IMG/VR virus record: IMGVR_UViG_3300029955_000092
Coordinates: 1 to 32,699 of that record
DNA length: 32,699 bases
Reading direction: 5' to 3' (one strand)
DNA from: a virus
Both the position numbers and the translations under genes were made by a program. Every line of letters starts with the position of its first letter. The first letter of the stretch is position 1. Of this stretch, positions 8,488 through 32,699 are shown in pieces. Below the pieces are notes generated by a model. That model was given only the letters and a program-made list of their open reading frames with translations, was not told the origin of the DNA and did not search any database.

Positions 8488-9085
8488 TATTCTTCTCTGT
8501 CAAGATTCGTGTTGTAGTTATCTACCATGATTATTTCGATCATATCGTACACATCTTCAACACTGTAAATCGTATCTAATTGTTCCAGCGTCGCCATTTT
8601 ATGCGAAAGTACCATCCCGAGCGTACGGGGGACATTCAGATAATCAATACGGCGCTGATCAGGTATGCCGCCGAATCTTACAGCGTGTTTCCGGCGGCTG
8701 GCAAAAAATTTACGTGCAACAGAAGAATCTCTTTACGTAGCAACAACCGGGTTTGCACTTCTTCGATGTCATCTTCAATCAGATTGCGAAGCACCGCCGG
8801 TTTACCCGGGTCTGGCACGGCCTGCACGCACTGGAACATCTCATCCATCAGCGGTTCCGCATCATAGTAATTCATACCCGCTAAAGCTTTGAACCCGACG
8901 GCAGCGATCCCTGCCATACCTGATTGCATGACATCTTCCGGTATATCGACGCCACTTTTAGCCAAAGCCAGAAAAACTTTCATCGCCCAACGTTCAGCTT
9001 GTGAAGCAGGCAATTCTTTCAGCTGAAATACTTTGCCTTTATCCCGTCCTTCCGCCGCGATCGTAATGGTTGCGGTTTTACGCAT
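8487..9085 (-). CDS. Tail assembly chaperone, long form made by -1 ribosomal frameshift
   Basis: Reading from the ATG at 9085, ribosomes that slip back one base at 8708-8702 bypass the stop at 8680 and read 71 more residues (A-S-R-R-K-H-A-V-R-F, then GGIPDQRRIDYLNVPRTLGM and further), ending at a TAA at 8489-8487; total 199 residues. The downstream frame is open through the whole gap, codes for a conserved-looking acidic helical segment, and has no credible start of its own (its first ATG has no Shine-Dalgarno site). Long tail phages make such short and long pairs (lambda G/GT, P2 E/E+E'), in which the extension binds the tape measure while tail tube subunits gather. Position between tube and tape measure fits exactly. 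Stated from sequence logic; no expression evidence. Confidence 0.82.
8678..9085 (-). CDS. Tail assembly chaperone, short (zero-frame) form
   Basis: 135 residues. An upstream GTG/ATG-type start 10 codons earlier overlaps the tube gene and would begin MANNLRSTC; instead the ATG at 9085, overlapping the tube stop as TAATG, has AGGAG about ten bases upstream. The product starts MRKTATITIAAEGRDKGKVF, then LKELPASQAERWAMKVFLAL, with a helical centre rich in Met/Ala and an acidic region near EAEPLMDEMF-type sequence. This is the standard pattern of the short chaperone that coats the tape measure protein in tail assembly. It is the major product; a minority of ribosomes should make the 199-residue form. 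It is not expected in the mature virion. Confidence 0.85.
   Translation of the reverse strand: MRKTATITIAAEGRDKGKVFQLKELPASQAERWAMKVFLALAKSGVDIPEDVMQSGMAGIAAVGFKALAGMNYYDAEPLMDEMFQCVQAVPDPGKPAVLRNLIEDDIEEVQTRLLLRKEILLLHVNFLPAAGNTL
8702..8711 (-). other. Slippery site for -1 programmed frameshift
   Basis: On the minus strand the ten bases read AAATTTTTTG with zero-frame codons AAT-TTT-TTG. Two overlapping X-XXY-YYZ heptamers fit: T_TTT_TTG (8708-8702) and A_AAT_TTT (8711-8705). T_TTT_TTG is, from memory, the heptamer used in the P2 E/E' genes. The zero-frame stop comes 22 bases downstream (8680-8678), and the -1 frame stays open to 8487. Confidence 0.82.
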
Positions 9086-9513
9086 TATGCAGGTGCTCCT
9101 AAGATTGTTTGCCATTTGATCTGAAACCGGCGCGGTGCCAGCACTTTCTTACCCGCAGCTAAAGGCGTGTAATTAGCCAGAACTCCATTCGTTAACGCGT
9201 ATGCCCGTGAGATGCCAGGCTGATATATCGTACCGAATGCCTGATAAATTTCACGTTGCGCTTCCTGCGATGCGTACCACGCCTCGAAAAAGACATTCGA
9301 CACACTATCCGGTTGCAGGGTGACGTGCATAATTTTAATCTGCGGCACCCAGCCAGTCGACATAATTCCGTCAACGCCGATCAGGGCTTCGACAGGATCT
9401 ACCGCGTCAACCTCATAGGCGTCATCTTGTGCGAAGCCTATCATTTGTTGCGGGGTGTTAAACAAACTTGTTACGCCCAGATAAAGGGTACTGTTTGCTG
9501 AAGTAATGCTCAT
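9085..9513 (-). CDS. Tail tube protein (DUF3277-like)
   Basis: 142 residues. Key segments are DDAYEVDAVDPVEALIGVDGIMSTGWVPQI and MHVTLQPDSVSNVFFEAWY followed by the C-terminal beta region with RRFQIKW. The G-x-D-G-x-M/V-S-x-G-W block followed by V-T-L-Q-x-D-S is typical of DUF3277 phage structural proteins, which pair with DUF3383 sheaths. They stack as rings to form the inner tube. The gene lies 15 bases after the sheath and overlaps the chaperone start, the order expected for contractile tails. The identification is by motif and context. Confidence 0.85.
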   Translation of the reverse strand: MSITSANSTLYLGVTSLFNTPQQMIGFAQDDAYEVDAVDPVEALIGVDGIMSTGWVPQIKIMHVTLQPDSVSNVFFEAWYASQEAQREIYQAFGTIYQPGISRAYALTNGVLANYTPLAAGKKVLAPRRFQIKWQTILGAPA

Positions 9514-9528
9514 GGTGAATATCCTTTA

Positions 9529-11466
9529 TTATTGAGCTTCGACTGAGGCTAAATTCATGCTTTGTACTGATCCGCCATCCATGTACCAAAAAGTCATCGG
9601 CGGAGAACCGCGGGCCCCCCGCACCTGCGCAGTGGCAGGCAAAATCTGCAAATAATACCCTTGTGAAAACAAAATCGCATCGATCGGCGTGCCTGCCGCC
9701 GTATTGACTTCGGCAATCTGCAAAGCAGATAACTGAACGCCTGGCTGAAATACGCCGAAGTTACCCGCTTGCGTAATCACTGTGCTTAACGCTGCGCGAA
9801 TTAAAGCGTAACCTTGCGAGTTGTAAGGAATAGCTTTCACGCTGGTCAGCAGTGTCATTAACACTAGCTGGAACGCTGAATTCATCCATATCTGATTAAC
9901 GTAGCTATCCGCCCACTGGAACTGACCTGAAATCTGGCCTGGATTAAAAAACTGGAAACCCTGATTGGCTGTCGCGTAAGAGCCGTAAAAATTGTATCCG
10001 TTAGCGATCAGATTAGAAGATACAGTCTGTGACGAGACAGTTGACGTAAATCCGGACTGCGATTTAAACGCCAGTGTCGAACGTCCGTTTAACTGCGTGA
10101 AATCGATCGATGCAATAGAACCTGAAGTAAAAGCTGCCAGTCCGGTGTTATTTGGGTCGTAAACGCAAATAGTTCCCGAAGTTGAGTTATTTTTAAGAAT
10201 ATAGCCGAGACTGTTTGTTGCTGCGTTCGATTGCGTCGGAGTGATATCGAGATCCCACGCAACATAAGCGAATTCGCTATTTTGCAAGCCGTCCCAGTTA
10301 GCGAACGCCTGTTTATTCACGTTGCCGTAACCATTATCAGGATCGAACAGGGTAAAGAAAGTTGCCCAGTTAGTTGTCTGCGCGACGATGCCCGCCATGA
10401 AGGCTGCAGGTGTTCCAGGTACCGCGCCTTGCGACAATGCGGCCCCGGTCGCCGAAGTCATCGACAAAGCAGTAGCCAGTGTGCCGGTACAGTAACCAAT
10501 CGTACCTGCTGCACCGGGGGCGCCGCCGGTTAAAACGAAGTTACCGGAAACGCTATCATAAGTACAGGTGAGCGGACCTGAACTGATTGTGGTCGCAGAT
10601 ACTGTTTGCGCGCCGCCTGACGTAATATATGTACCTGCTGCACCTGTACCGGTGCCCAGAGCTGTAATGGTTGTACCGGCTGCAGTAGTACCTCCTGATA
10701 TGACTGATCCGACATACAGAGTACCTGACGACATCGCTGCAACAGTCATCAACCCGTATGATTGCGTAATCGTGGTTGATGTTGTTGTCTGATTAAGGCT
10801 GACAGTATAAGTGCCAATACCTCCCGTCGTGCCAGTAAGTTGTGCCGTAATCGCTGTACCTGTCGTAACGCCTGTGCCAGACAGTACGCCGCCGACAACT
10901 AAAGCGCCTGAACCGACAGCAGTCACTGTCAGGGTATAGCCGGTGATTGAGCCTGTTACGCTGGTTGTCGTGCCTGTAGCGATAGTTGTCGCGGCGCTGG
11001 TAACACCGTCGTACGCGCCGAATGCTGTGGTAATGATCGTCGCAGCGTTTGCGGGGCTGGTAGCCGCAGATAAAGTGATCGCCCCCGACGTTTTCTGTAC
11101 GCCTTCTACAGTGACGATTAACGTGCCGCTAAGAACCTGTAACGCTGTCAGTGATAAAGCCGCTGTTGCACCGCCGCGGATATATGCGGGTACGGCGTTT
11201 TGGTTGTATTGCGCAAACAATAATGCGCCAGGCTTAATGTTCGAACCTTGAAAACCCGCGAAATATATAAGAGCGTTAGCGTAGTGTACTGAAGCTAATC
11301 CGTAATATGCACCGACAGCGGGTGCTGAAGGAAATGAAGGAACTGTTCCGATTGGTGTGCGAGTGCCGTTATCCAGACATAGCCCGGATAAATCTAAGCC
11401 AGAACCGCCGGCCGATAAAACACTGGGGTTGACCTGGACAATGGCCGATGCTGGTATTGTACTCAT
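9529..11466 (-). CDS. Tail sheath protein (DUF3383-like) carrying two inserted repeat modules
   Basis: 645 residues. The N-terminus has [22 protein letters not shown] then [26 protein letters not shown], the usual start of DUF3383 sheath proteins. After about residue 320 the core resumes with [38 protein letters not shown] and a C-terminal domain with [21 protein letters not shown] and [15 protein letters not shown]. Sheath proteins of this family are usually nearer 480-520 residues. The extra length is a Thr/Ser/Gly-rich stretch at about 160-300 holding two copies of the module (169-234 and 238-295), probably on the sheath's outer surface. Start is an ATG with GGAG eight bases upstream. Confidence 0.9.
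10582..10962 (-). repeat. Two tandem protein-level repeat modules inside the tail sheath
   Basis: Copy 1 (10765-10962) encodes residues 169-234: [16 protein letters not shown] and later [13 protein letters not shown]. Copy 2 (10582-10755) encodes residues 238-295: [12 protein letters not shown], then [11 protein letters not shown]. They align with each other and with the J and cement copies as short strands spaced by S-G-T and G-T-G turns. Confidence 0.75.
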
Positions 11467-14959: not shown

Positions 14960-16129
14960 TTAGCCGATAGCCCATGAACTCATCTTAATGAGTTCACCGA
15001 CCGCGCCGGGGGACATCGCAAACCACTTAGTTTCAGTGGCGCCCAAGACTGTCACAGTACCGCTTGTTGATGCGGTAGATGTATTAGTCAGATAACTGCC
15101 AACGCCGCCTGTAGCACCAGAAACCTGTGCTGTGACCTGCGTATTTGCGGCGATAGTGCCGCCAGTAATCGTGTCATTAATACTGATCGCGCCGGAACCA
15201 ACAGCAGAAACAACCAAAGTACCGCCTGATGCTGAAATGGTTGTTGATGTGGTGGTTTGGCTGATACTGACAGCATAAGTACCCAGACCGCCTGAACCTG
15301 AAATAAAGGCAGTGATGGTTGTTCCTGCCGATACGCCCGTTCCTGATAATGTCTGCCCGACAGCAAACGTACCTGACAATGCAGAGCCGGCGGTAAACAT
15401 GCCGCCTGATGCAGTAATCGTGGTACTAGGTACTGTCTGACTAATATTTACCTGGAAGGTAGCGCCAGCAGAACCGCCAGCGGTACCTGTCAACTGCGCA
15501 ACGATCGTTGTACCTGCAGCTACACCGGTGCCAGTCAGAGTCTGACCTGCAACAAAACCGCCGCTGGATAACGCACCCATAGTGAGTGTGGTACCTGCAA
15601 TAGTGCTGGTTGTTGCTGTATTAACCGCAATGGTTGATGTCGCAGCGCTATTGGCTACCAAAGAAGCAGTTACTGATGCTGCTGTTGGCGGAGAGCCTGT
15701 AGCCGCAAAACTAATCTGGCCTGTAGCGTTATTCGCGTAGGCTTTCATGTTTGCCGTTACGGCGGTAGTTCCGTTATTAGTTACCCAGAAGTCGCCAGCC
15801 TGATGCACTGTGACAGGGTATCCTGGAGGTACCAGCTGGGTGTTATATCCAAGGAACTTAGTAATCAGAGCTTGCTGTTCGCGGTGGATAAAACCGAGAG
15901 GTGTACCAGCTCCGGTATTGTTAACCTGCGACCACGGATCGACTTCGCCTGAAACGTTGTCGTAACCTTGCGGCGATCCCCAGCAGAAGTACCCTACCGT
16001 AACGCCGTTAGGTCCTGCTACAGGATCACCAGGCCCGTTCAACACCGACGCGCGGGGGTTGGCCGAGCAAAAATCGCCCGCCACGCCTGGTGCGGGCATA
16101 ATATTTACTTGCTGTTGAAATTGTGACAT
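14960..16129 (-). CDS. Capsid cement/decoration protein (Gp24/DUF2190-like) with three inserted repeat modules
   Basis: 389 residues. The N-terminal 145 residues ([74 protein letters not shown] in outline) match phage structural cement proteins that sit on the capsid. The C-terminal 25 residues ([21 protein letters not shown]) complete the same core. Between them, residues about 175-362 are three tandem copies of the Thr/Ser/Gly module. Usual family length is near 150-200, so the modules roughly double the protein and should be displayed on the outer head surface. Start is the ATG at 16129 with AGGAGA upstream. Confidence 0.82.
15044..15607 (-). repeat. Three tandem protein-level repeat modules in the cement protein
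   Basis: Copies encode residues 175-239 (15413-15607), 240-300 (15230-15412) and 301-362 (15044-15229). The second and third have the shared order S-G-T/A, V-G-Q/N-D, G-T-G/G-G-T, A-G-T/A-N-T, T-I-T/V-T-A, G-x-G-x-x-G-x-Y, S-I-S-Q-T or equivalent. Each is about 60 residues, and they follow one another without a linker. Confidence 0.78.
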
Positions 16130-23111: not shown

Positions 23112-23389
23112 TAAAATGTACTTTGATTTACCAAAAACTGGCTGACAGACGCTACCTGGGCTACGCCGGTACCGATCCACTCATACTGATGCAGCCCGAC
23201 TTGCACCGGGTTAAACTGCGCGTAATATACGCCAGTCGACACTACAAGCACTGAACTGGAGTAATCAGTGACGACACCATCGGGAGTTTGTATCTTAAAT
23301 GTGACCGTTGTCGGACTTATCGGGCTACCTGCTGGCGTTGTAACGGCCAAATTTAACTGGATCAGTGTGCCTGCTGTGTACGTGTTCAT
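23111..23389 (-). CDS. Small Ig-like beta-sandwich protein, hypothetical
   Basis: 92 residues. The pattern AGTLIQLNLAVTTPAGSPISPTTVTFKIQTPDG, then STGVYYAQFNPVQVGLHQYEWIGTG and an end F-L-V-N-Q-S-T-F, resembles one Ig-like/carbohydrate-type sandwich (strand, P-T-x-V-x-F, P-D-G, G-x-Y, G-x-H/Y-x-Y-x-W). Similar small proteins are encoded near portals. It overlaps the portal start by one base and the repeat-protein stop by four bases, so the three are coupled. Role unknown; surface decoration is possible. Confidence 0.62.
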   Translation of the reverse strand: MNTYTAGTLIQLNLAVTTPAGSPISPTTVTFKIQTPDGVVTDYSSSVLVVSTGVYYAQFNPVQVGLHQYEWIGTGVAQVASVSQFLVNQSTF

Positions 23390-24477
23390 GTGTCGCCCGT
23401 AATTGCTGTTGTGACGGCGTAATCGCCTGTCGCTGAGTTGTACACCCGGTTGTCGTTTGTAACAGCAATCATCGTCACGGCAGCAGCGTAATCGCCTACT
23501 GCTAAATTATATGCCCCATGGTCATTTGCGGCGGTGATAAACGCTGCGTAATCCGTGGCTGCCAGCTTGCCGATATTGGACCCGTGAATTACGACGGTAA
23601 CAAAACCTGCCTCTGTTAGCCCCTGCACCCCGCTGACATTAATAGTCCAGACAGGTGTACCGGTAACAACCCCCGCGGCGCTGTTTCCCTGTTTGCCTGC
23701 TAATCCTGTTCGCACCGCGCTTATTACATTACCTGCGGTAGTGGTGCCCTGAACACCTGCTGCATAAAGCCCGTCGTTCGCCGCCATCAGGCCCGCGGCG
23801 CAAGTGGCCTGTGCGCCGCTTAATGCTGCGCGTACTGCAGGTATTACTGAACCTGATGCTGACGCAGCCTGAACGCCTGCCAGTGTGCCTGTATTAATTA
23901 AATCAGAAGTGCTGCCGGCGGCTGATGTGCCCTGAACCCCTGACACGGTGGTCTTGCCTCCCGCTGCCAGACTGCCCGGAGAAGCGGCCCCTTGCGCACC
24001 AGTTACCTGCACACTGATGCCAGGAACCAGGCTGCCGGCACCCGATATCCCTTGTGCACCGGTTAATGTTACGGCTATGGCAACGGAGGTCGTGCCCGCA
24101 CCTGATACCCCCTGCACACCTGTGGCTTGTGCCCCGCTAAAAACGACACTGCCTGCCGAAGTCGTCCCCTGGACGCCCGTTACATTAACTGCAATGACTG
24201 ACGACACGGTGCCAGCGGAACTGGTTGCCTGAACCCCCGCCGTAGTTACAGCGGTCGTTACGCTGACATTTCCCGCGGCAGATGTGCCTGCAGCGCCGGT
24301 AATTGCTTGTAGCAGCGCAGGTATGATGGTGCCTGCGGAACTGGTTGCCTGAACACCGCCAACCTGATACTGAATACGGACTGACAGAACCCCGGCAACA
24401 GAGTTCGCCTGAACTCCGGTGACGGCATAACTGACAGACCCGCCGGCTGAACCGGAAAAAAGGAGCAGCATGGACAT
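23386..24477 (-). CDS. Repeat protein: 14 units of about 20 residues
   Basis: 363 residues. After a hydrophobic start (residues 3-19), residues 20-301 contain fourteen units of 19-22 residues, consensus T/S/A-G-V/A-Q-G/A-T/x-S/x-A-G-x-V followed by eight or nine mostly beta residues. Each unit is about 60 bases. Residues 302-363 are a separate set of three D-Y-A units (T-D-Y-A, G-D-Y-A, G-D-Y-A). The protein lacks Cys except one, has no catalytic motif, and resembles a stalk or decoration. ATG at 24477 has AAGGA seven bases upstream. Presence in the TerL-portal block suggests a virion part; that is inference. Confidence 0.7.
   Translation of the reverse strand: MSMLLLFSGSAGGSVSYAVTGVQANSVAGVLSVRIQYQVGGVQATSSAGTIIPALLQAITGAAGTSAAGNVSVTTAVTTAGVQATSSAGTVSSVIAVNVTGVQGTTSAGSVVFSGAQATGVQGVSGAGTTSVAIAVTLTGAQGISGAGSLVPGISVQVTGAQGAASPGSLAAGGKTTVSGVQGTSAAGSTSDLINTGTLAGVQAASASGSVIPAVRAALSGAQATCAAGLMAANDGLYAAGVQGTTTAGNVISAVRTGLAGKQGNSAAGVVTGTPVWTINVSGVQGLTEAGFVTVVIHGSNIGKLAATDYAAFITAANDHGAYNLAVGDYAAAVTMIAVTNDNRVYNSATGDYAVTTAITGDT
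23575..24420 (-). repeat. Coding tandem array, 14 imperfect units of about 60 bases
   Basis: The array encodes the G-V-Q-G-T-x-A-G-x-V units of the preceding entry (residues 20-301). Unit length is 20 codons in most cases, with four variants of 19, 21 or 22. Units differ clearly at DNA level, so it is an old array under protein selection rather than a recent expansion. Confidence 0.72.
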
Positions 24478-24500
24478 AGTGCTGTCCTTTTAATTAACTA

Positions 24501-25142
24501 TTAAACTGGTACTTCTTCCCAGGAAAATGAAGCTAAAAAGCCTGATGCGGCCATCACTGCAGAGGTGTAGATGAGCGCATAGCCGCCTGGGGGTAAAATA
24601 ATTTCACCTTTTATATCGTAAATACCAGGCATTGATTCCGTTGTGGTTACTGCGCCGGTTCCCAGCGCACCTAAAATAGTGTCTACGGTAGGTACGACAG
24701 GCAGCGTGATCGTGGCTGAAGAGTATAACTGGGCAACAGGCTGTGCACCCGAGCCTATATTTTTTGACTTAGGATTCAGCGATGTCAGAGTTCCGCTCAG
24801 TGCTGCAATGCCGTAACCGGTGGCCAGACCAAATACCAGCGGTGCTGCTGGTGCAACAATAAAACCGATGCCGACACGTTCAATCGCGACGTTTACTGCC
24901 GAACCGACCGGGTTGTAAAGCACTACCGTACCTGTTACCGTGGTGCTTAACCCGGCGATAGTTGCTGTCGCTAAGGCTGCCTGCATCGCACCACCAAAAC
25001 GGGACTTACGATACGTACCTTCATAACAAGGCCCGTGTAGTTCTGAAACAATTACGTCGTTCATGTTGCCGGAACGGACAACGGGCTGCGACCCGGACGG
25101 CGAGGAAGCCGCTGGTGCGCCGGTTTGCGTAGTAATTTGCAT
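24501..25142 (-). CDS. Conserved hypothetical virion-type protein
   Basis: 213 residues. The pattern NMNDVIVSELHGPCYEGTYRKSRFGGAMQ, then VVLYNPVGSAVNVAIERVGIGFI and GLATGYGIAALSG, is one I associate with unnamed phage structural genes (D-V-I-V-S-E-L-H-G-x-x-Y-E, N-P-x-G-S-x-V-N). The end, LPPGGYALIYTSAVMAASGFLASFSWEEVPV in outline, is beta strands with a P-P-G-G-Y turn. There are no signal peptide or membrane helices. It is flanked by other beta-rich genes of the same block, with AAGGG eight bases upstream of the ATG. No function can be assigned. Confidence 0.6.
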   Translation of the reverse strand: MQITTQTGAPAASSPSGSQPVVRSGNMNDVIVSELHGPCYEGTYRKSRFGGAMQAALATATIAGLSTTVTGTVVLYNPVGSAVNVAIERVGIGFIVAPAAPLVFGLATGYGIAALSGTLTSLNPKSKNIGSGAQPVAQLYSSATITLPVVPTVDTILGALGTGAVTTTESMPGIYDIKGEIILPPGGYALIYTSAVMAASGFLASFSWEEVPV

Positions 25143-25154
25143 AGTTATAACCCT

Positions 25155-26753
25155 TTAAATATAAGTAGCACTGACGCTACAAGTCGATGCGGTGATCGCT
25201 GTTGCATCCAACACGGCGATAGCGCCAGTGACTGCCCAAATTATGCCTGATGAAAACGACATACCAACAGAGGGTATCGGTAGTGCATAAGAAGCTGTTG
25301 GCGGTATATAAACGTTATAAACCGGTGTCGTCGTGCCTACCGTTGCCGTAGTTGCGTTAAATAGTTTTAGCCAGACCCCTGTACTGTTGGAGTTAGATAC
25401 CGACATCGACATCAGTCGGCCCGCCGAATTTTTAGTTGTTTGACTTACAGGTGTTGCTGGTGCCAGCACTACTGTGGCAAATGACGTCCCGCTAGGTGTT
25501 ACTGTTATGCCCAGGGCTATTTGCCCGGCTGCGGCGGCTGAAGCTGTTCCCCCTATTTGATTTATGTTAACAGGGGCGGGCGCTACGTACCCCGACGCCC
25601 AGGGTTGCGCACGTAAATAGGCTGTCGCGTTACCGGCACCCGTTACCGTTAACTTTATCCAGCGTGCTAAACAAGGGAAACTGTAAGAACCACTCGAAAT
25701 GGCGGTTACGTACCCGTTTATTATTAGCGCCGCCGTCCCGGATAACGCTGACCAGTTTACAAGGTCATTAGAACAGCTCACCGTGGCTTGCATAACATAA
25801 GTTGTTATATTTAAGCTTTGGTACCCTGTCGTATCTATGACGAGCTGGCCGTTAACTACACCGTTTAACGGGATTGGTACTGGCGCATCTGAAACAAGTA
25901 TCCGGCCATTTACATCGACCGCTGGCTGATTAACTATCTTAAAGCGTGCCGCAAGACCTAACGTATCATCAAATAAGGCAGACATAAAATCGACGTTGGC
26001 AAAATCGCCAGCCGGGTCGCCCGTTATTGCCTGAAATAGCGGCCCGTCAGATGATGTTGCTGCTAACGTGGCCGGGTCGGGAACACTGCTGCTGCTAATA
26101 ACGGTGACTGGCAGTCCTGCGCCCGGTGCGATAGCCACACCGTTGATTTCGTTTAATGCGACGGGCAGGTTACCTAAATTAGTCACCGGCATAATAGCGC
26201 CGTATGCCACATTCAAATTAAACAGGGTGGTCGTGTTGGGACCGACATTTTGCGCCGTTACTTTGACGTAGTTACCGTTCAAAATGCGTGAGATATTAAC
26301 CGCGTTGCCCGGCGTGACTAAATACGTCCACACATCGGCCAGATTTACCCCGAGAATATCGACATATTGCAAAACAGTTAGTATAAGCGGCTGATCTGAT
26401 GTACATAAAAACGTGATAGCCGGTTCCGCTTCCGCTGTTTCAATCGCGCCGGGAAATATTTGCCCGGGGGCTAATTGTGCGGTGCTGGTATTAACTGTAC
26501 TGTAAAAAAAATTAGTCGCGCCCAGCGCAACCATCAGCCCGTTTTGGCCGGCACCGGCTGATAAACTGTTAATCGGGGAACCGGAACCGTCATTACTGTT
26601 AACGCTTCCGGTCCATGCCGATTCGCTGCTACCGTCAGCCCCACCCCCTACGTCGAGGATGGTCATCGGTGTTTTAACACCTGCGTTGACCGTTTTTGCT
26701 ACCGTACGGATTATATCGCCGGCCCCGCCGCTTGATGCGCTATTGTCACTCAT
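25155..26753 (-). CDS. Hypothetical multidomain beta-sandwich protein
   Basis: 532 residues. Residues about 110-185 form a first sandwich-like domain (ITFLCTSDQPLILTVLQY, YVKVTAQNVGPNTTTLFNL). Residues about 300-385 form a second, discoidin-like pattern: TVSCSNDLVNWSALSG, GSYSFPCLARWIKLTVTGAGNATAYLRAQP, i.e. S-N-D-x-x-x-W then Y-S-F-P-x-x-A-R-W-I-K-L. Such sequence occurs in receptor-binding and decoration proteins. The C-terminus (400-532) is beta sequence with ISVGMSFSSGIIWAVTG-type strands. No enzyme motif seen. It is part of the TerL-portal block; function unknown, with a carbohydrate-contact role possible. Confidence 0.62.
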   Translation of the reverse strand: MSDNSASSGGAGDIIRTVAKTVNAGVKTPMTILDVGGGADGSSESAWTGSVNSNDGSGSPINSLSAGAGQNGLMVALGATNFFYSTVNTSTAQLAPGQIFPGAIETAEAEPAITFLCTSDQPLILTVLQYVDILGVNLADVWTYLVTPGNAVNISRILNGNYVKVTAQNVGPNTTTLFNLNVAYGAIMPVTNLGNLPVALNEINGVAIAPGAGLPVTVISSSSVPDPATLAATSSDGPLFQAITGDPAGDFANVDFMSALFDDTLGLAARFKIVNQPAVDVNGRILVSDAPVPIPLNGVVNGQLVIDTTGYQSLNITTYVMQATVSCSNDLVNWSALSGTAALIINGYVTAISSGSYSFPCLARWIKLTVTGAGNATAYLRAQPWASGYVAPAPVNINQIGGTASAAAAGQIALGITVTPSGTSFATVVLAPATPVSQTTKNSAGRLMSMSVSNSNSTGVWLKLFNATTATVGTTTPVYNVYIPPTASYALPIPSVGMSFSSGIIWAVTGAIAVLDATAITASTCSVSATYI

Positions 26754-26759
26754 GACTTA

Positions 26760-27440
26760 TTAAGCGATACGAATTAAAGAGGTGGTTGAGCCTACTGTGG
26801 GCAGGAGTATAGTAAATGTGCCAGCCGTTACGGTTTGTGTACCGCCAAAGCTGCCGATATAAGCGCAATAAGTCTGGTTACTCGCGTTATAAATCATGCA
26901 TCCTGATGTGCTAAACGTAGCCGATGTCCAGCTCGGGTTTGTTGTGGGCTGCGTGACAGCGACCAGCGTGTTCAGCACCGGTGTGGTATTTAATGCGCCG
27001 CCGCACGCCTGTCCGCCCTGTGTATATCCGCCCGATCCGGCTAATTCATCGGTGCCTAAGTTGGTTGTTGTGGGCGACCCTGAACTTGACCCCCACTGAA
27101 CCGACCCCGCGCCATATGTTCCTGTCACCGTCGCAATCATCAGGGCACAATTAAAATTATGCCCGACGAAGGTTAATGTAGGTGACCCGGCACCTGTGCA
27201 TGCCTGGGTGATATAGCAAGACGTGGCACTGTCGATCGCACCCACAAAACTGTTTGCCGGTACGTTGGTGCCTGATACGCTGCAACCGATAGCTACGTTG
27301 GCCAGCGACGACAGTGCTGTGATATGTGTGCTTGTGTTAGCCGTTGTGCCGGTCGCTGTACCCGAACCGTTAAAGCAGTGGCCGCCCTGTAAGACGCTGA
27401 CCTTAAACTGAGAGGGGAGTGCGGTGGTAATACCAGCCAT
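26760..27440 (-). CDS. Hypothetical phage structural protein with variant repeat module
   Basis: 226 residues. The start TTALPSQFKVSVLQGGHCF and the later GTDELAGSGGYTQGGQACGG are characteristic of a recurrent family of unnamed phage proteins (S-F-K-x-x-L-L-x-G-x-H-x-F ... Y-G...D-E-x-x-G-x-G-Y-T-x-G-G). Residues about 25-95 are an insertion: GTTANTSTHITALSSLANVAIGCSVSGTNVPANSFVGAI and further strands ending L-T-F-V-G-H-N-F, a variant of the Thr/Ser/Gly module used elsewhere here. The G-x-x-V-S-G-T-N-V-P-A-N-S turn matches the G-T-G-V-x-x-G-T turn of the other copies. No function is known. Confidence 0.62.
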   Translation of the reverse strand: MAGITTALPSQFKVSVLQGGHCFNGSGTATGTTANTSTHITALSSLANVAIGCSVSGTNVPANSFVGAIDSATSCYITQACTGAGSPTLTFVGHNFNCALMIATVTGTYGAGSVQWGSSSGSPTTTNLGTDELAGSGGYTQGGQACGGALNTTPVLNTLVAVTQPTTNPSWTSATFSTSGCMIYNASNQTYCAYIGSFGGTQTVTAGTFTILLPTVGSTTSLIRIA

Positions 27441-27442
27441 GG

Positions 27443-27946
27443 TTATTCTCCGGTCGTGATCGCCGCGCTGTCACCAGCAGGGGTAACAGCCGGTGCCAGT
27501 GTGGCTTTAAATTCGATACTGTGACCAAGGTCAGGATTGCGGTCTGCGTGCCAGCTTCGTTCAATTTGCATACTTGTCTGAAAATGCGATATTAGTGTGG
27601 CGCGAATACGGTCAGGCATTGCCGGGTCGCTAAAATCGGGCGCCCACTGGGTGGCCTGGCCTGCGGCGATAATCGCCGCTACAGCAGCGTCTAAATCGGT
27701 ATGGTCAGACGGGCTGCCGTCAGCGACCAGCCGGCTGCTGTCGTTAGCGATAAACAACCGTTCCCCGGCTTGTACCTCGTCGTGGTGCTTTTCCAGAATA
27801 TCGACAATAGCGCCCATTAGCTTAATACCTACGCCGCGTTTTTCCGGTGCGATGTCATCAGCGATAGCCAGAATATGGGTGGCTGTGGCTTCTGCCCAGG
27901 CTGCGCCGGAGTGCGGGCCGCCGTTAGTGATCAGGATACCTTGCAT
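27443..27946 (-). CDS. Conserved hypothetical phage protein
   Basis: 167 residues, ATG at 27946, AAGG seven bases upstream. Sequence starts MQGILITNGGPHSGAAWAEATATHI and has helices with LMGAIVDILEKHHDEVQAGERLF, then RATLISHFQTSMQIERSWH. The N-G-G-P-H-S/P-x-x-W-A-E-A-T-A-x-H-I start is a pattern I recall in unnamed genes next to TerL or capsid genes. The C-terminal 25 residues are Ala/Thr/Pro-rich and probably disordered. It follows TerL by 19 bases. Role unknown. Confidence 0.6.
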   Translation of the reverse strand: MQGILITNGGPHSGAAWAEATATHILAIADDIAPEKRGVGIKLMGAIVDILEKHHDEVQAGERLFIANDSSRLVADGSPSDHTDLDAAVAAIIAAGQATQWAPDFSDPAMPDRIRATLISHFQTSMQIERSWHADRNPDLGHSIEFKATLAPAVTPAGDSAAITTGE

Positions 27947-27965: not shown

Positions 27966-29567
27966 TTAGATCGCCGCTACAGCATACTGACTGATCGTGA
28001 TAGGTTTTCGTGCGGTCACCGAAAAAGCGATCATAACCGCGTCGGCTAAATTTGGCGACTTGGTATTGTCTGGTGCTTTGTTCACCACGATCTTACCGAT
28101 ATCGTTAGTGACATAAGTTGGCTGGCTCAGTTCGCCAACCAGTTTGCTATGATGTTTAATGGCTGAGCTGATCGAAATAATATCGTCCGGATCGCATACG
28201 CGTCCTTCGACCACCCACCCGTACGTTTTCTCGAACCGGCGGCGCAACGCCCACCAGGCCTGCGCTTTACGGTCCCGGAAATAATCTTTATTCTTGCGTC
28301 CTTTAACGTCTTCGCCTTCAGGGTTAAAGACGGCTTCAGAACCGCGGAAGGCTTCGGCTTCAATGGGCCGCTGACCGTTGTCGGTGCGCCGCTGGGCAAT
28401 GATACGCGCGTCGCCGCGCACGCCCGCGCCCAGTCCGTCACTATCGTACTTAAATAATTCGTATCCCATCGCGTCGCAGATATCGTGGGCTTTAAAAGCT
28501 GTCCTGAAAATATCGCTGCCTTTACCGGACCATTCATCGACGTATTCCAGAACAATGCCGTGACGTCCGCAGAACGCGTTCATATCTTTACCTTCGTCGG
28601 CCACGTCCAGTCCGCCGGATTTCATGCCTGACGGAGGTATTTGCAATCGCAGGTGCGCGTCAACCGACGCTTTAATCCAGCTGACAGGGATCAAAACGCC
28701 TTCCACTGAGGCTGCGAAGTCGCAATCTATTTCCTGCGCGACGGTGACCGGATCAAGTTCTTCGCACTGGCGGTTGTACCACGCGATATCTTTCCTGGGA
28801 TCGTCCTGCCAGTGAAAGGTAAAAAGTTTAATTTTGCCGCCATTGCATTTATCTGCGAATGGATTGCCGTACCCGTTCGGTGTCGAAATATCGATACGGC
28901 AATTCGTTGTCTGTGACAGCGAAGCCTCCACCAGATGCGGCCTTTCAAGAAACGCCGATTCATCCACAAGGTAAATGGATGTCGTATTTCCGCGGCCAAT
29001 ATTGTCTCCTGCTTCGCCCGTAATTGTGGCGCCCGTTTCCGGGAAAATCAGCCGCATATGCGGCGCGTGCTTACCCGCTTCCCACCCCGCCCGAAACTCA
29101 ACGGGCAGGTTGGCCATAAATGTGCGCCCTTTGTGAAAGAGCGATTTCGGGTCGCCCACCGAGTCCACGTAAATCTCTTTACGTGACCCGACGCCGATGG
29201 CCATCCCTTCATTAAAAATACTGAGCGAACAACCGACGGCCATGGCCAGCCAGGAGAAACCCATCTGCCGCGTTTTCAGCGTCATCATCGGTTTCTGGTT
29301 ATGCCAGCACCAGATAACATCGTTAATCCAGTCTTCCTGTTTCGGAAACAGGATGAACGGAATCAGGCTGGGCAGACCGCGCTCCACATTTTTTGGATCC
29401 ACCGTCACGCCCCAGTCCATAATAAACTGCGGGATGTGTTCTTTGTAGTACGCTTTAATCCCGGGGAGCTCACCAGGGTTGTTACGGATGAATGTTAATG
29501 CGTCAGCGCGCATCTGGAACACGGCGTTGTAATCCGGGTTCATGTAATCGAAATTAAGAGGGCGCAT
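27966..29567 (-). CDS. terL: Terminase large subunit (TerL)
   Basis: 533 residues. Walker A-type KTRQMGFS at 98-105, Walker B SIYLVDESAFL at 197-207 (Asp202, Glu203), coupling motif S-T-P at 228-230. The C-terminal nuclease has Asp321 in GGLDVADEG, Asp375 and Asp377 in YDSDG, and Asp509 in NLADAV, the expected three acidic positions of an RNase H-type fold. It is the ATPase motor and DNA-cutting enzyme of packaging and is full length. The region before the ATG lacks a strong Shine-Dalgarno site and carries a hairpin (29584-29611) in the end of the previous gene, so its translation may be coupled to that 40-residue gene. Confidence 0.95.
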   Translation of the reverse strand: MRPLNFDYMNPDYNAVFQMRADALTFIRNNPGELPGIKAYYKEHIPQFIMDWGVTVDPKNVERGLPSLIPFILFPKQEDWINDVIWCWHNQKPMMTLKTRQMGFSWLAMAVGCSLSIFNEGMAIGVGSRKEIYVDSVGDPKSLFHKGRTFMANLPVEFRAGWEAGKHAPHMRLIFPETGATITGEAGDNIGRGNTTSIYLVDESAFLERPHLVEASLSQTTNCRIDISTPNGYGNPFADKCNGGKIKLFTFHWQDDPRKDIAWYNRQCEELDPVTVAQEIDCDFAASVEGVLIPVSWIKASVDAHLRLQIPPSGMKSGGLDVADEGKDMNAFCGRHGIVLEYVDEWSGKGSDIFRTAFKAHDICDAMGYELFKYDSDGLGAGVRGDARIIAQRRTDNGQRPIEAEAFRGSEAVFNPEGEDVKGRKNKDYFRDRKAQAWWALRRRFEKTYGWVVEGRVCDPDDIISISSAIKHHSKLVGELSQPTYVTNDIGKIVVNKAPDNTKSPNLADAVMIAFSVTARKPITISQYAVAAI

Positions 29568-29573
29568 AAACGC

Positions 29574-29696
29574 TTATTTCTTAGGCTGTTTTGGCTTTAA
29601 AGCCAACAGCCCCCAGCCCAACTGTCGCCTGATCTGATCGGCTGTCAGCGGTGCAGTCTTTGGTTCGGGCCGGGGGTGCTTGGGTAGTTCAGACAC
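29574..29696 (-). CDS. 40-residue conserved small protein between TerS and TerL
   Basis: A GTG at 29696 has GGAAGG at a seven-base spacing and opens a 40-residue frame: it starts S-E-L-P-K-H-P-R-P-E-P-K-T-A-P-L-T-A-D, then Q-I-R-R-Q-L-G-W-G-L-L, ending in Lys/Pro-rich sequence. Its stop is six bases before the TerL ATG. L-T-x-D/E-x-I/V-R-R-x-L-G-W resembles short genes of this place in other phages. It fills the whole gap between TerS and TerL. Function unknown; a packaging accessory is possible. Confidence 0.65.
   Translation of the reverse strand: MSELPKHPRPEPKTAPLTADQIRRQLGWGLLALKPKQPKK
29584..29611 (-). promoter_or_regulatory. Hairpin in the 3' end of the small gene, just before TerL
   Basis: GGCTGTT (29584-29590) pairs with AACAGCC (29605-29611), and GGCTTT (29593-29598) with AAAGCC (29599-29604), leaving a two-base bulge. 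It ends 16 bases before the TerL ATG on the minus strand. No U-run follows, so it is not a terminator. It may affect TerL translation; that is inference. Confidence 0.4.
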
Positions 29697-29719
29697 TGAT
29701 CACCTTCCTTTCCAAACAA

Positions 29720-30415
29720 CTAACTGCCAGACAACATCCTCTGATAGGCTCTGCTGGCGTCGATCGCATTAATTCCTGCAAAGTCGACATTCGCCGTGAT
29801 ATCCTGCAGGGCTTTTGCAGACGCTTCCTTATTGCCGGCCAGTACCGCTAAAGCCGGTTCCAGCGCTTTATTCGCTGCTGTGGAGAGGGCCATCACGTTG
29901 CGCGCCACTAAGTGGTTGTTCGCATCGGGGTCTTCCATGTTCAGTTTTTCGACTTCCTTATTCGCCGCCTGCGCCAGTACGTGCGCCGTTTTGGCACCGT
30001 AATTCGCCGCGCCGACAACTTCTGTCGTCATGGAACGCAACTGATCAATTAATTTTTTCGTGCTCTCCTGATGTTCTTTCGGGAGCTTTTCCAGTGTTGC
30101 CCGCGCCTTGTCGGCGGCAGCAGTGGCTTCCGGCGATGCGTCAGTCTCCGCCGAAAATAAATCTTTAGCGACAGTCGTGATCATTTTGATTTTCTGGGAA
30201 ACGTTACGGCTGATCGTGGATTGGTTTACCTGATGCTTGTCGGCTAATTCCGTCGTGGTTGCGCCTTGCAAATACTCCAGCTCGATCGTCGTCCATTCTT
30301 CCGGCGTTTTCGCGCGCGGCATTCCGCGGCGTTCACCATGGCGCACTATTTTCTTCGGCCGTATCTTAGGCCGCAAATAATCGTGACTGTCGCTGGTATC
30401 GGGAACATAAGCCAT
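29720..30415 (-). CDS. terS: Terminase small subunit (TerS)-like protein
   Basis: 231 residues. Residues 10-35 are basic (RPKIRPKKIVRHGERRGMPR). Residues about 38-74 hold a helix-turn-helix (EWTTIELEYLQ, TTTELADKHQVNQSTISRNV), the DNA-recognition part expected of TerS. Residues about 80-200 are long Ala/Lys/Glu helices, which would oligomerise. The C-terminus (DFAGINAIDASRAYQRMLSGS) is a short helix suited to contact with TerL. Position immediately upstream of the small gene and TerL supports the call. The HTH also leaves open a regulatory role. Confidence 0.82.
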   Translation of the reverse strand: MAYVPDTSDSHDYLRPKIRPKKIVRHGERRGMPRAKTPEEWTTIELEYLQGATTTELADKHQVNQSTISRNVSQKIKMITTVAKDLFSAETDASPEATAAADKARATLEKLPKEHQESTKKLIDQLRSMTTEVVGAANYGAKTAHVLAQAANKEVEKLNMEDPDANNHLVARNVMALSTAANKALEPALAVLAGNKEASAKALQDITANVDFAGINAIDASRAYQRMLSGS

Positions 30416-30504
30416 AAACCACCCGCAAATAAAAAACGGTCCTGTTTAGGAACCGCGAAGACCATGACGCACGCTAAGATCATGGCCGGAGATTGTTGGA
30501 TGCA

Positions 30505-30524
30505 GGGGTTGCTTTGGCAACCCC
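30505..30524 (-). promoter_or_regulatory. Perfect 8-bp hairpin in late leader
   Basis: GGGGTTGC (30505-30512), loop TTTG, GCAACCCC (30517-30524). It is very stable but is not followed by a U-run on either strand, so it is not a classic terminator. It lies 90 bases upstream of the terS ATG. A pause or RNA-processing element is possible. Confidence 0.5.
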
Positions 30525-30561
30525 GCGCTCACCCACCGAAGCGAATGAGGGGGAGTACAAA

Positions 30562-30597
30562 GAAAAAAGCCGGCTCGCGTGCGGCACAGCTTTTTTC
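30562..30597 (-). terminator. Candidate terminator upstream of terminase operon
   Basis: GAAAAAAGC (30562-30570) pairs with GCTTTTTTC (30589-30597). On the minus strand two more pairs form (a G-U and a C-G), extending the stem to 11 pairs with a 14-base loop and a run of six U at the end; on the plus strand the first of these is a C-A mismatch. So it works best on the minus strand, after the Q-like gene and before terS. It is a candidate target for antitermination. Confidence 0.6.
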
Positions 30598-30738
30598 AGA
30601 GCGAGTTAAGCAATCAAGTGAAGCGTCTAAGGTAAGACGGTGCCCCGCTTTCGCCCTGATTATGCATTTCGGATTGTGAAACCGGATCTGCAGTGATACG
30701 GAATATACACCTTAGTTTTCTATCGCGCAACTTATTTT

Positions 30739-31245
30739 TTACGTCGCCATTTTTCGGGCTAATTTTTTCACGGCCATGTTGCCGGCATACCGTTCCAGTT
30801 CCGCCAGCGTTTCGACCATATCCTTTACGTGGTTCAGAATGCGCGCTTCAGCGGTGACCGGTTTCGTGCCTGAACCGCTGCAGGGTTTGCATGTCGCTTC
30901 ATACGCGCCTGTCTGATTAAACTTAGGATGGAATCCTCGCCCCTGACAGGCCGGGCACACCGGATTTAACCAGTACGTCATCGCCGCATTCGCGACAATA
31001 ACCGGGTTGATGTGTTCGGGCCAGTGCCGTAATTCCGCTTTGTTTTTTACAATCGCTATCCACTTGACGCTTAACGTTTTGTACGAGGTTGCATCGTTGC
31101 AATATTTCACCCGGTACATGTCGGTAGCCAGTCTGACAGGGGAGAGGGCTAACGCAATTAACGCGTCGGTGGCGAAGTGCCGGTCGTCATCCCTCAGATT
31201 ACTGCTGTTCACGGATCGTGCGTACTTTTCGGCTATTTCTGTCAT
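30739..31245 (-). CDS. Zinc-finger protein, candidate Q-type late antiterminator
   Basis: 168 residues. Residues 97-105 (CPACQGRGF) and 119-126 (CKPCSGSG) form two C-x-x-C-x-G-x-G knuckles, the DnaJ-like zinc motif used in phage Q-type antitermination proteins. The rest is helical, with a basic start and a C-terminus ending KKLARKMAT. It lies directly upstream of the terminase genes, behind a strong sigma70 promoter and before a leader holding a terminator, which is the layout of Q and its site. GGGAGA lies eight bases before the ATG. A DnaJ-like Zn motif alone occurs in other small phage proteins, so the role is inferred from context. Confidence 0.62.
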   Translation of the reverse strand: MTEIAEKYARSVNSSNLRDDDRHFATDALIALALSPVRLATDMYRVKYCNDATSYKTLSVKWIAIVKNKAELRHWPEHINPVIVANAAMTYWLNPVCPACQGRGFHPKFNQTGAYEATCKPCSGSGTKPVTAEARILNHVKDMVETLAELERYAGNMAVKKLARKMAT

Positions 31246-31292
31246 GCTGGCTCTCCCGGGCGGCTTTGTTTTTGCATCGCGAACACGGCGCG

Positions 31293-31321
31293 AGTGTACC
31301 GCACACCGGTCTGTATGGCAA
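31293..31321 (-). promoter_or_regulatory. Sigma70-type promoter for the Q-like gene
   Basis: Minus-strand -35 TTGCCA (31321-31316, five of six matches) and -10 TACACT (31298-31293, four of six), spacing 17 bases. The ATG of the Q-like gene is 48 bases after the -10. It is one of the two clearest promoter-like sequences noticed in the window. Confidence 0.68.
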
Positions 31322-31420
31322 CACTTTTTGCATAGAAACGAAAAATTTTGCTGCGCGGTAACGCGTTTTAGAAAATAAAACGGCTAGTTGCATACGGTAA
31401 GGGGGTGGGCGTTGTGGTTT

Positions 31421-31443
31421 GACTATTTGACTATTTAACTATT
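31421..31443 (-). repeat. Short tandem repeat at the end of the HNH gene
   Basis: On the plus strand, GACTATTT occurs twice (31421-31436) followed by AACTATT (31437-31443). It overlaps the HNH stop codon. The same (T)GACTATT/CAACTATT words occur in the noncoding region on the other side of the HNH gene (32168-32175 and 32657-32664). Confidence 0.6.
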
Positions 31444-32047
31444 CCTGATCGTCAAACAGAGAGGGTGCGGGGATCAGCTGCCGGGTAAGATGCTTCCATG
31501 TTTTAAAGTTGCGGATATGCGATACCGCTGCCTGGCTGATGCCATACTCTTTCGCCAGTACTTTCTGTTTTTCGTTTCCGTAACGAATACGAATCACGGC
31601 CTCTTCGTCCATTTTCGATGTTGGACGGCCTTCACCCTCAGTCTGCGTTCCGTGTTGCCGTTTATCCCGCATATTTTGCAGATGGTTGCCCAGGTACAGA
31701 TTCGTTATCGCATTATCGAGATGATTTCCGTCCTTGTGCAATACGTGCGCGCCTTCAGGTATTTCGCCGTGAAAAGCCGCATAGACCAGCCGGTGAACCT
31801 GATAGCGTTTAATTCCCGGCGTTTCAGACAGCCACACCGGTTTAGACAATATCACGCCTAAACGCCCTTGCTTATTGGTCCCTGGTTTCAGTAGCGTTTT
31901 ATGAATACGCAACCCCTCATCGATCGAAGACTGCAACAGCCGGGCCACACTGCGTACGCGCCCGTGACTGCTTGCCTGGTATAGTCCGACATACCCCGGG
32001 ATATCGCGCCATTCTTCGTATTCATCTAAAGCGTTCCAATTTTCCAT
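31439..32047 (-). CDS. HNH endonuclease with NUMOD4 domain (homing-type)
   Basis: 202 residues. Residues about 10-50 match NUMOD4 (EEWRDIPGYVGLYQASSHGRVRS). Residues about 82-130 match HNH: HRLVYAAFHGEIPEGAHVLHKDGNHLDN then ITNLYLGNHLQNMRDK, with His104 and Asn112/Asn116 as likely catalytic or metal residues. Residues about 160-180 form a helix-turn-helix (KVLAKEYGISQAAVSHIRN), suggesting DNA recognition. Such freestanding enzymes cut near their own site and spread through phage genomes, sometimes next to packaging genes where HNH nucleases aid packaging. AAGG lies six bases before the ATG. It stands alone between repeat-rich noncoding DNA and the Q-like gene, consistent with late insertion. 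Confidence 0.85.
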   Translation of the reverse strand: MENWNALDEYEEWRDIPGYVGLYQASSHGRVRSVARLLQSSIDEGLRIHKTLLKPGTNKQGRLGVILSKPVWLSETPGIKRYQVHRLVYAAFHGEIPEGAHVLHKDGNHLDNAITNLYLGNHLQNMRDKRQHGTQTEGEGRPTSKMDEEAVIRIRYGNEKQKVLAKEYGISQAAVSHIRNFKTWKHLTRQLIPAPSLFDDQE

Positions 32048-32077
32048 AATATACCTTCAAGTCTGTTTTACGTCCTT

Positions 32078-32106
32078 ATTATATTTATTTTTTAGTTAGG
32101 GTGCAA
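32078..32106 (-). promoter_or_regulatory. Promoter with perfect -10 upstream of HNH gene
   Basis: Minus-strand -35 TTGCAC (32106-32101) and -10 TATAAT (32083-32078), spacing 17 bases. The HNH ATG is 30 bases after the -10. The -35 is only a partial match, but the -10 is consensus and position fits. Confidence 0.55.
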
Positions 32107-32273
32107 GCGTTTTTACCGGGGGATGTCTGCTTAGGCTGGGGGCTAAAAGCTTGTAGTTGTCAAGCTGTCAACTATTTGTAAAAAAGTGCCGCGCGGCTAA
32201 ATAGGTGCCCCTGGGGTCAGTCGGCCAAAAGTGTCCGAAGGGGGTCAAACTGACAACATTTCTCAGTAGTAAT

Positions 32274-32315
32274 GTTATCCGTTAGCTAACAATTGTTATC
32301 TGTTAGCTAACAATT
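32274..32315. repeat. Two tandem 21-base iteron-like repeats
   Basis: Units at 32274-32294 and 32295-32315 differ at one base. Each contains the palindrome GTTAGCTAAC followed by AATT; at the second unit the palindrome CTAACAATTGTTAG (32307-32320) forms, and a partial third unit follows. Repeated AT-rich palindromes suit a protein-binding site such as an operator or replication iteron. Confidence 0.6.
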
Positions 32316-32639
32316 GTTAGTTAAAATATATCGAATTACGATTATAAGTGTATGTTAGTGTTATTTGTCGAAATAATGATTATGCGAAATTGAAAATAAT
32401 AGCGTTAATAATCAATGACTTAAACAGTCAACTACTAGTTGTTAGCTGCGTAGCTGTCAGAATTGACGCTCAACTACTAGATGTAGTGTTGTCCGTTATC
32501 GATCGATGCTGGCGTTTTATGCGCCGTGTTGGCGCCTGGGGATTATGGTGTTGTCAGCTTGCATACACTTTTGACTGCCCCGCTTGCTAACTGCCGAAGC
32601 TATTGTTCAACCGTTAGCCGTTAGCAGAAAGCCAATAGC

Positions 32640-32658
32640 CAACTACTAGATGTAGTTG
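32640..32658. repeat. CAACTACTAG inverted-repeat family member
   Basis: CAACTAC, TAGAT, GTAGTTG is an exact inverted repeat. Related copies are at about 32429 (CAACTACTAGTTG), 32471 (CAACTACTAGATGTAG) and a looser one at 32153-32174 (TAGTTG...CAACTA). Confidence 0.6.
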
Positions 32659-32664
32659 ACTATT

Positions 32665-32699
32665 GTCAGCCAGGACGCTGTCAGCCAGGACGCTGTCAG
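32665..32699. repeat. 15-base tandem repeat at the window end
   Basis: GTCAGCCAGGACGCT occurs at 32665-32679 and 32680-32694, then GTCAG to 32699. The array is cut by the window boundary, so its true length is unknown. Confidence 0.75.

Follow-up and report, generated by a model that had tools for sequence, protein, structure and literature searches.

A putative Q-type late switch between a zinc-finger gene and the terminase genes of a phage known from sequence fragments

The window analysed here (the whole of a 32,699-base virus record, from a phage known here from virus sequence fragments alone, and about which a literature search found no paper) carries, immediately in front of its terminase genes, a segment that probably works like a Q-type late switch, in which a small zinc-finger protein would allow RNA polymerase to pass the terminators standing before terS. 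The best reading of the sequence is that this protein (hereafter the regulator) is a Q-type antiterminator belonging to none of the families described so far, and it is proposed as such; the term Q-type denotes a likeness in working and not family membership, since no Q-family profile was reached. In the sections of two papers dealing with them (PMC9371919, PMC7171158), the three Q families (21Q, lambda Q and 82Q) are described as having a common function and genomic place without significant sequence similarity; according to the same sections, Q depends on two sequence elements, one in the late promoter to which it binds and a pause sequence resembling a -10, and then suppresses the terminators downstream. 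The lambda Q site is placed partly between -10 and -35 in a passage of PMC6266700.

The late genes occupy the minus strand of the window, where the regulator gene, a gap, terS, terL and the late operon follow one another in one direction. The regulator adjoins terS with no other gene in between, and the 323-nt gap that separates them, the largest between the late-strand genes listed, contains a promoter and then a terminator. From the upstream side, the features are:

31439-32047, upstream of the regulator: gene for an HNH/NUMOD4 homing-type endonuclease (Pfam scan)
31293..31321, minus strand: sigma70-like promoter, TTGCCA-17-TACACT, 47 nt before the regulator ATG (rank 8 of 32659; unchanged in L003)
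30739..31245, minus strand: regulator gene, 168 aa, proposed Q-type antiterminator (ORF, CxxCxGxG pair, copies, likeness to VPAG_00015)
30702..30730, minus strand: candidate late promoter, TTGCGC-17-TATATT (rank 20 of 32659, score 8.95; joint layout test)
30562..30597, minus strand: intrinsic terminator 1, tR'-like, with a T-run (-13.7 kcal/mol)
30528..30549, minus strand: 9-bp hairpin with a UUCG loop, between the terminators (whole-leader fold)
30505..30524, minus strand: 8-bp hairpin between the terminators (-15.1 kcal/mol, a stability matched by 0 of 200 shuffles)
30460..30487, minus strand: hairpin between the terminators (-11.6 kcal/mol, a stability matched by 3 of 200 shuffles)
30431..30456, minus strand: intrinsic terminator 2, with a run of six Ts and its end 15 nt upstream of the terS start codon (count-based scan and fold)
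29720..30415, minus strand: putative small terminase subunit terS, 231 aa, an HTH protein and first late gene (position before TerL; HTH-type PHROG matches)
27966..29567, minus strand: large terminase subunit TerL, 533 aa (phrog_2, E 1.6e-31)

Promoters were scored with a simple sigma70 matrix, by which 32659 minus-strand positions were ranked. The sequence-only reading had set a strong promoter at 31293-31321 at the head of a Q-type switch; that promoter is present, it is among the four listed by a count-based scan of 29000-32699 (4.4 expected, so no excess over chance), and 19 of 2000 shuffles equal the top score of the gap between the HNH and regulator genes, but it probably drives the regulator gene and not the late genes. 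Position, layout and relatives fit the switch, which is the best-supported explanation. In a Q switch a promoter must stand between the regulator gene and the terminator, and the site at 30730-30702 (unmentioned in that reading, as were terminator 30456-30431 and two more hairpins) is taken as the candidate late promoter. It lies 8 nt past the regulator stop codon and about 105 nt before terminator 30597-30562, with the transcript start expected near 30695; it is missing from the list of the count-based scan, and when the 141-nt segment is shuffled, 74 of 2000 shuffles equal its score taken by itself. The three known copies are identical from the -35 to the -10. The -35 is weak (TTGCGC, 3 of 6), as would suit an activated promoter; Ogr/Delta-type and C-type proteins recruit polymerase to late promoters, and the existence of small zinc-binding proteins of that kind counts for the idea that the regulator is a late activator of this sort rather than an antiterminator, an idea to which we give little credence, as the two terminators between promoter and terS would then be needless and as Q occupies the same place in the TerL relatives. 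A further strong promoter-like site, 32106-32078 (TTGCAC-17-TATAAT), precedes the HNH/NUMOD4 gene; beyond it, 32200-32699 is dense in palindromic and direct repeats (TTAGCTAACAATTGTTAGCTAAC type, AACTACTAGTTG type and a 15-nt tandem TGTCAGCCAGGACGC), which could be a replication origin or an operator cluster.

The layout was then considered as a whole. A promoter had to score 8.9 or more and have its -35 no further than 60 nt from a stop codon, and it had to be followed, at a distance of 40-250 nt, by a terminator at least as stable as -13 kcal/mol. With these thresholds, which were set after the gap had been seen and thus make the numbers optimistic, the real gap passes, and so does 1 of 2000 dinucleotide shuffles; a single one of the 90 real ORF ends of at least 60 aa (43 minus, 47 plus) passes, that of the regulator, and the 6 passing windows among 6476 sliding ones (both strands, step 10) overlap one another, all at the regulator end. 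The gene-promoter-terminator layout at the regulator is unique within the window.

Terminator 30597-30562 is, according to the terminator routine, the second-best terminator-like site on the window's minus strand, where it reaches -13.7 kcal/mol (6 of 200 shuffles as stable), against -9.4 kcal/mol on the plus strand (50 of 200); the argument for orientation that the sequence-only reading had drawn from this preference stands, and the stable hairpin that it had seen is the one at 30524-30505. A leader RNA ending at terminator 1 is expected to be about 130 nt long. The count-based scan, which lists six terminators in 29000-32699 for 4.4 expected, includes terminator 30456-30436 and omits 30597-30562. 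Applied to the lambda leader, the terminator routine returns only the hairpin at +321 to +342 after Q; because it finds none at the end of the 6S RNA, where the lambda terminator lies, it can miss real terminators.

The two terminators might merely close the early operon, late transcription starting elsewhere (for example at 30520-30492, or by read-through) and the zinc-finger protein having another role. The promoter-like site 30520-30492 indeed scores slightly above the candidate late promoter (9.02 vs 8.95), but its -35 lies inside a hairpin and it ends 36 nt before terminator 2, so that transcription from it would itself stop; and if the position of the regulator below all regulator family cut-offs speaks for such an account, the promoter between gene end and terminator, and the Q genes that five relatives carry in the corresponding position, are left unexplained by it, so that it appears unlikely. 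Immediately before terS, five hairpins stand in a row over about 165 nt, and the leader 30692-30416 folds better than its shuffles (z -2.67), as might be expected of a packaging or RNA-processing site; that this should be their main function is scarcely believable, two of the hairpins carrying T-runs like those of intrinsic terminators in the transcribed direction, and such a site could coexist alongside the switch. Rfam gave nothing at gathering score in the window, and for 30380-31440 a single match (EBER1, E 2.2), judged to be chance. Neither a Q binding element nor a pause element was identified in the late promoter and leader; CACAAT (30678-30673) and CATAAT (30664-30659) are candidate -10-like pause sequences, spotted by eye with no statistic attached, and they sit further from the start than the lambda pause element.

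Between the window and a 57-kb relative, 2 of the 323 gap bases are changed, both between the -10 and the expected start, and 15 of the 507 bases of the regulator gene, all in its last third, with two amino-acid changes in the protein (residues 131 and 168); the conservation of the gap, in two lineages only, gives weak support to the switch reading. In the same relative, ORFs with highly repetitive translations are found at L024 5250-5540.

The C-x-x-C zinc protein of the sequence-only reading is real as an ORF, and its cysteines (C97-x2-C100-x18-C119-x2-C122) lie in two CxxCxGxG motifs. Copies in the viral contig collection are identical (on L002) or 99% identical (on the 57-kb contig); besides these near-identical copies that collection yielded no homologue, and with the leader stretch as query it yielded near-identical copies only. 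A homologue was not found in the genome contig collection, nor was there a match in the plasmid collection at E<=1 or in the phage collection at 1e-5. When the latter was searched at E<=10, 40 records matched (36 mycobacteriophage, with 43-46% of the protein covered, 2 Vibrio phage douglas, 1 Pseudomonas phage and 1 Caudoviricetes), of which the closer comparison took in the two Vibrio phage douglas ones only. Solved structures gave a single match, put down to chance (E 0.89), and the AlphaFold2 model, in which a helix-turn-helix flanking the finger would speak for the lambda Q family, is of low confidence (mean pLDDT 48.6).

Membership of the regulator in one of the three Q families is not supported by these sequence comparisons. 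It falls below every family cut-off in Pfam and NCBIfam, the DnaJ central domain (PF00684) reaching 21.2 bits for a cut-off of 32.7, with no more than two CxxCxGxG motifs present, and the search for Q-family homologues that the sequence-only reading had suggested as a check came out negative for the Q profiles of Pfam. With PF03589 (lambda Q) the regulator has no match at E<=1, and none of three records (window, 57-kb relative and phage douglas) matches; PF06323 (Q82), whose presence in the Pfam copy is assumed, is absent among the Pfam-A matches at E<=1; PF06530 (Q21) does not match the regulator, its signal being confined to the neighbouring TerS (14.4-14.8 bits vs a cut-off of 26), where it was rejected as a second Q because it is below cut-off and falls in the HTH region. 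The profile phrog_6060 ("anti-termination protein Q-like") matches the regulator at E 2e-4, and also a second, weak place in G001; this match was rejected as proof of Q membership, since 13 of 14 control genomes are matched by the same profile, whose signal is therefore that of a generic zinc finger.

A set of 36 lambda-family Q sequences was assembled (33 picked from 80 loci, with the Q of lambda, SEN34 and YP3). The profile search gives the regulator 9.5 bits, over the finger region, and profile-profile comparison with the set found nothing credible (probability 0.8% for the regulator, 4.5% for VPAG_00015). When the zinc finger was held and the rest of the protein shuffled 1000 times, the score of the regulator was equalled by 710 shuffles against lambda Q, by 1000 against SEN34 Q and by 872 against YP3 Q, and its likeness to lambda-family Q is thus that of the zinc finger alone. 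Against the Q21 family, 18 of 1000 such shuffles equal the score with yong1 Q and 916 of 1000 with 606R2 Q, values from which no inference is drawn.

One distant relative beyond the finger is VPAG_00015, a hypothetical protein of 179 aa from Vibrio phage douglas 12A4, which is 26% identical to the regulator over 121 residues, comprising the zinc finger and the part preceding it. Only 1 of 1000 finger-kept shuffles equals its score, against 214 to 803 of 1000 for four neighbouring douglas control proteins, and the likeness therefore goes beyond the finger; when the finger is masked altogether the score (31) is that of an unrelated control (31), so that the signal outside the finger is weak and has weight only in so far as it prolongs the alignment of the finger. 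With a database E-value of 0.05, homology is likely, not proven. As query, VPAG_00015 retrieves the two records of its own phage and three Staphylococcus phage records at E 0.2, and no homologue in the viral contig or genome contig collections. Its surroundings are similar: its stop codon is overlapped by a promoter (TTGACT-18-TATGAT, score 11.23), behind which lies a terminator of -17.2 kcal/mol at +73 to +99; a second hairpin of terminator type, at +12 to +46 (-13.9), overlaps the -10. Like the regulator, VPAG_00015 lies upstream of TerL, but four other genes intervene; the douglas TerL and the gene preceding it have no significant match to those of the window (best E 0.046, over 58 residues), so that a similar layout is met in another phage background.

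The window TerL has matches in 1055 phage records, seven of which were opened; in five of the seven, a Q stands at the equivalent place. It is annotated as antitermination Q, before lysis genes and terminase, in yong1 and 606R2 (PF06530) and in SEN34 and YP3 (PF03589); in the unannotated Citrobacter phage Omnitron, an ORF at the equivalent place matches the Q-like phrog_753 (E 1.4e-57) and has no Pfam match at E<=0.05, the same PHROG profile matching also yong1 Q (E 4.6e-12). A tRNA-Asn gene (L023 1609-1683) lies in Omnitron between this ORF and the next ones. The stretches opened of Bordetella phage IFTN9 and Burkholderia phage Magia have no annotated Q, and a Pfam scan of five of their ORFs (three and two, respectively) found no Q family. 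Behind the Q genes, promoter scores are clear in lambda (10.53) and yong1 (10.89) and weak in SEN34 (6.37), 606R2 (6.29, at +391) and YP3 (6.11), so that by this crude scan the layout is suggestive and not universal; terminator-like hairpins follow Q in lambda, SEN34, yong1 and 606R2, and all that YP3 shows is a -7.3 hairpin that overlaps the end of Q. Since, among the TerL-related phages, members of two Pfam Q families, of another Q-like PHROG and the window protein all occupy this place, it looks, from these comparisons, like an exchangeable module.

With the lambda Q family (PF03589; SEN34, YP3, lambda) the regulator shares a gene position before the late genes, a paired CxxC zinc finger (spaced by x22 in lambda Q and by x18 in the regulator) and, in lambda clearly and in SEN34 and YP3 weakly, a promoter behind the gene; it differs in lacking a PF03589 match, in a sequence likeness limited to the zinc finger, and in its size (168 aa vs 207-267 aa). 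Both VPAG_00015 and lambda Q carry extra sequence after the finger, where the regulator has a gap of about 12 to 17 residues (about 12 in the BLAST alignment with VPAG_00015). The Q21 family (PF06530; yong1, 606R2) and the phrog_753 Q of Omnitron have in common with it the equivalent place and a related TerL, but no convincing sequence match, and yong1 and 606R2 have lysis genes separating Q from terS, where the window has no gene; in the 57-kb relative, a glucosaminidase gene is found far from terS, past the tail-fibre genes (L025), and close to it one of the last late genes resembles class 3 lipases (L025 4057-4716; PF01764, E 9.6e-14). Antiterminators outside the Q families are AlpA of Pseudomonas aeruginosa and GafZ of Caulobacter, compared here by description and not by sequence; in the parts of PMC9371919 and PMC11150451 that concern them, they act through a promoter element followed by terminator bypass, but what they control is a pathway of bacterial cell death and a cluster of gene-transfer-agent genes.

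As a Q-type switch, the segment would operate as follows. As the early phase draws to a close, the 168-aa zinc-finger protein would be produced, its own promoter 31321-31293 probably contributing. RNA polymerase would start at 30730-30702 and, without the protein, would stop at 30597-30562 after about 130 nt, terminator 30456-30431 serving as a backstop before terS. The protein would bind DNA at the late promoter and load onto the promoter-proximal polymerase, which would then pass both terminators, turning on terS, terL and the one-direction late operon together; DNA binding, loading, pausing and antitermination are what we infer from the arrangement. If the late operon is one transcript, polymerase must also pass the strong, nearly symmetrical terminator 13848-13821 (-14.9 kcal/mol), which lies behind the major head gene in a 75-nt gap of the operon; this would suit processive antitermination, and a promoter-like site after it (13807-13778, score 9.0) offers another way.

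Other features of the late region were recorded. The five late genes that separate TerL from the portal region (23386-27946) gave nothing at Pfam cut-off and no PHROG at E<=1, and the 532-aa protein 25155-26753 has no phage-collection match at 1e-5 and, in IMG/VR, matches none but near-identical contigs. The minor head protein 14960-16129, the tail sheath 9529-11466 and the baseplate protein 1172-2584 have a stretch of about 65 aa in common (phrog_21413 / phrog_38233), as though several virion proteins had each received the same decoration domain. A frameshift product is found in many phages behind the tail assembly chaperone gene; here a gene resembling such a chaperone (8678-9115; PF21822 below cut-off) is followed by a 190-nt gap (8488-8677).

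A wider proposal, which we put forward tentatively and hold at somewhat less than even, is that the regulator and VPAG_00015 represent a further Q family, that of compact antiterminators of late genes whose zinc finger, reduced in its C-terminal part, would read the promoter, and which may have originated or diverged separately from 21Q, lambda Q and 82Q, in carriers whose terminases are not recognisably related. If the Q-type reading is true, a further occupant of the Q place has been found by layout and not by profile, and a late switch would be recognisable from the order of gene, promoter and terminator; such layout-based recognition would aid the annotation of late control in metagenomic phages.
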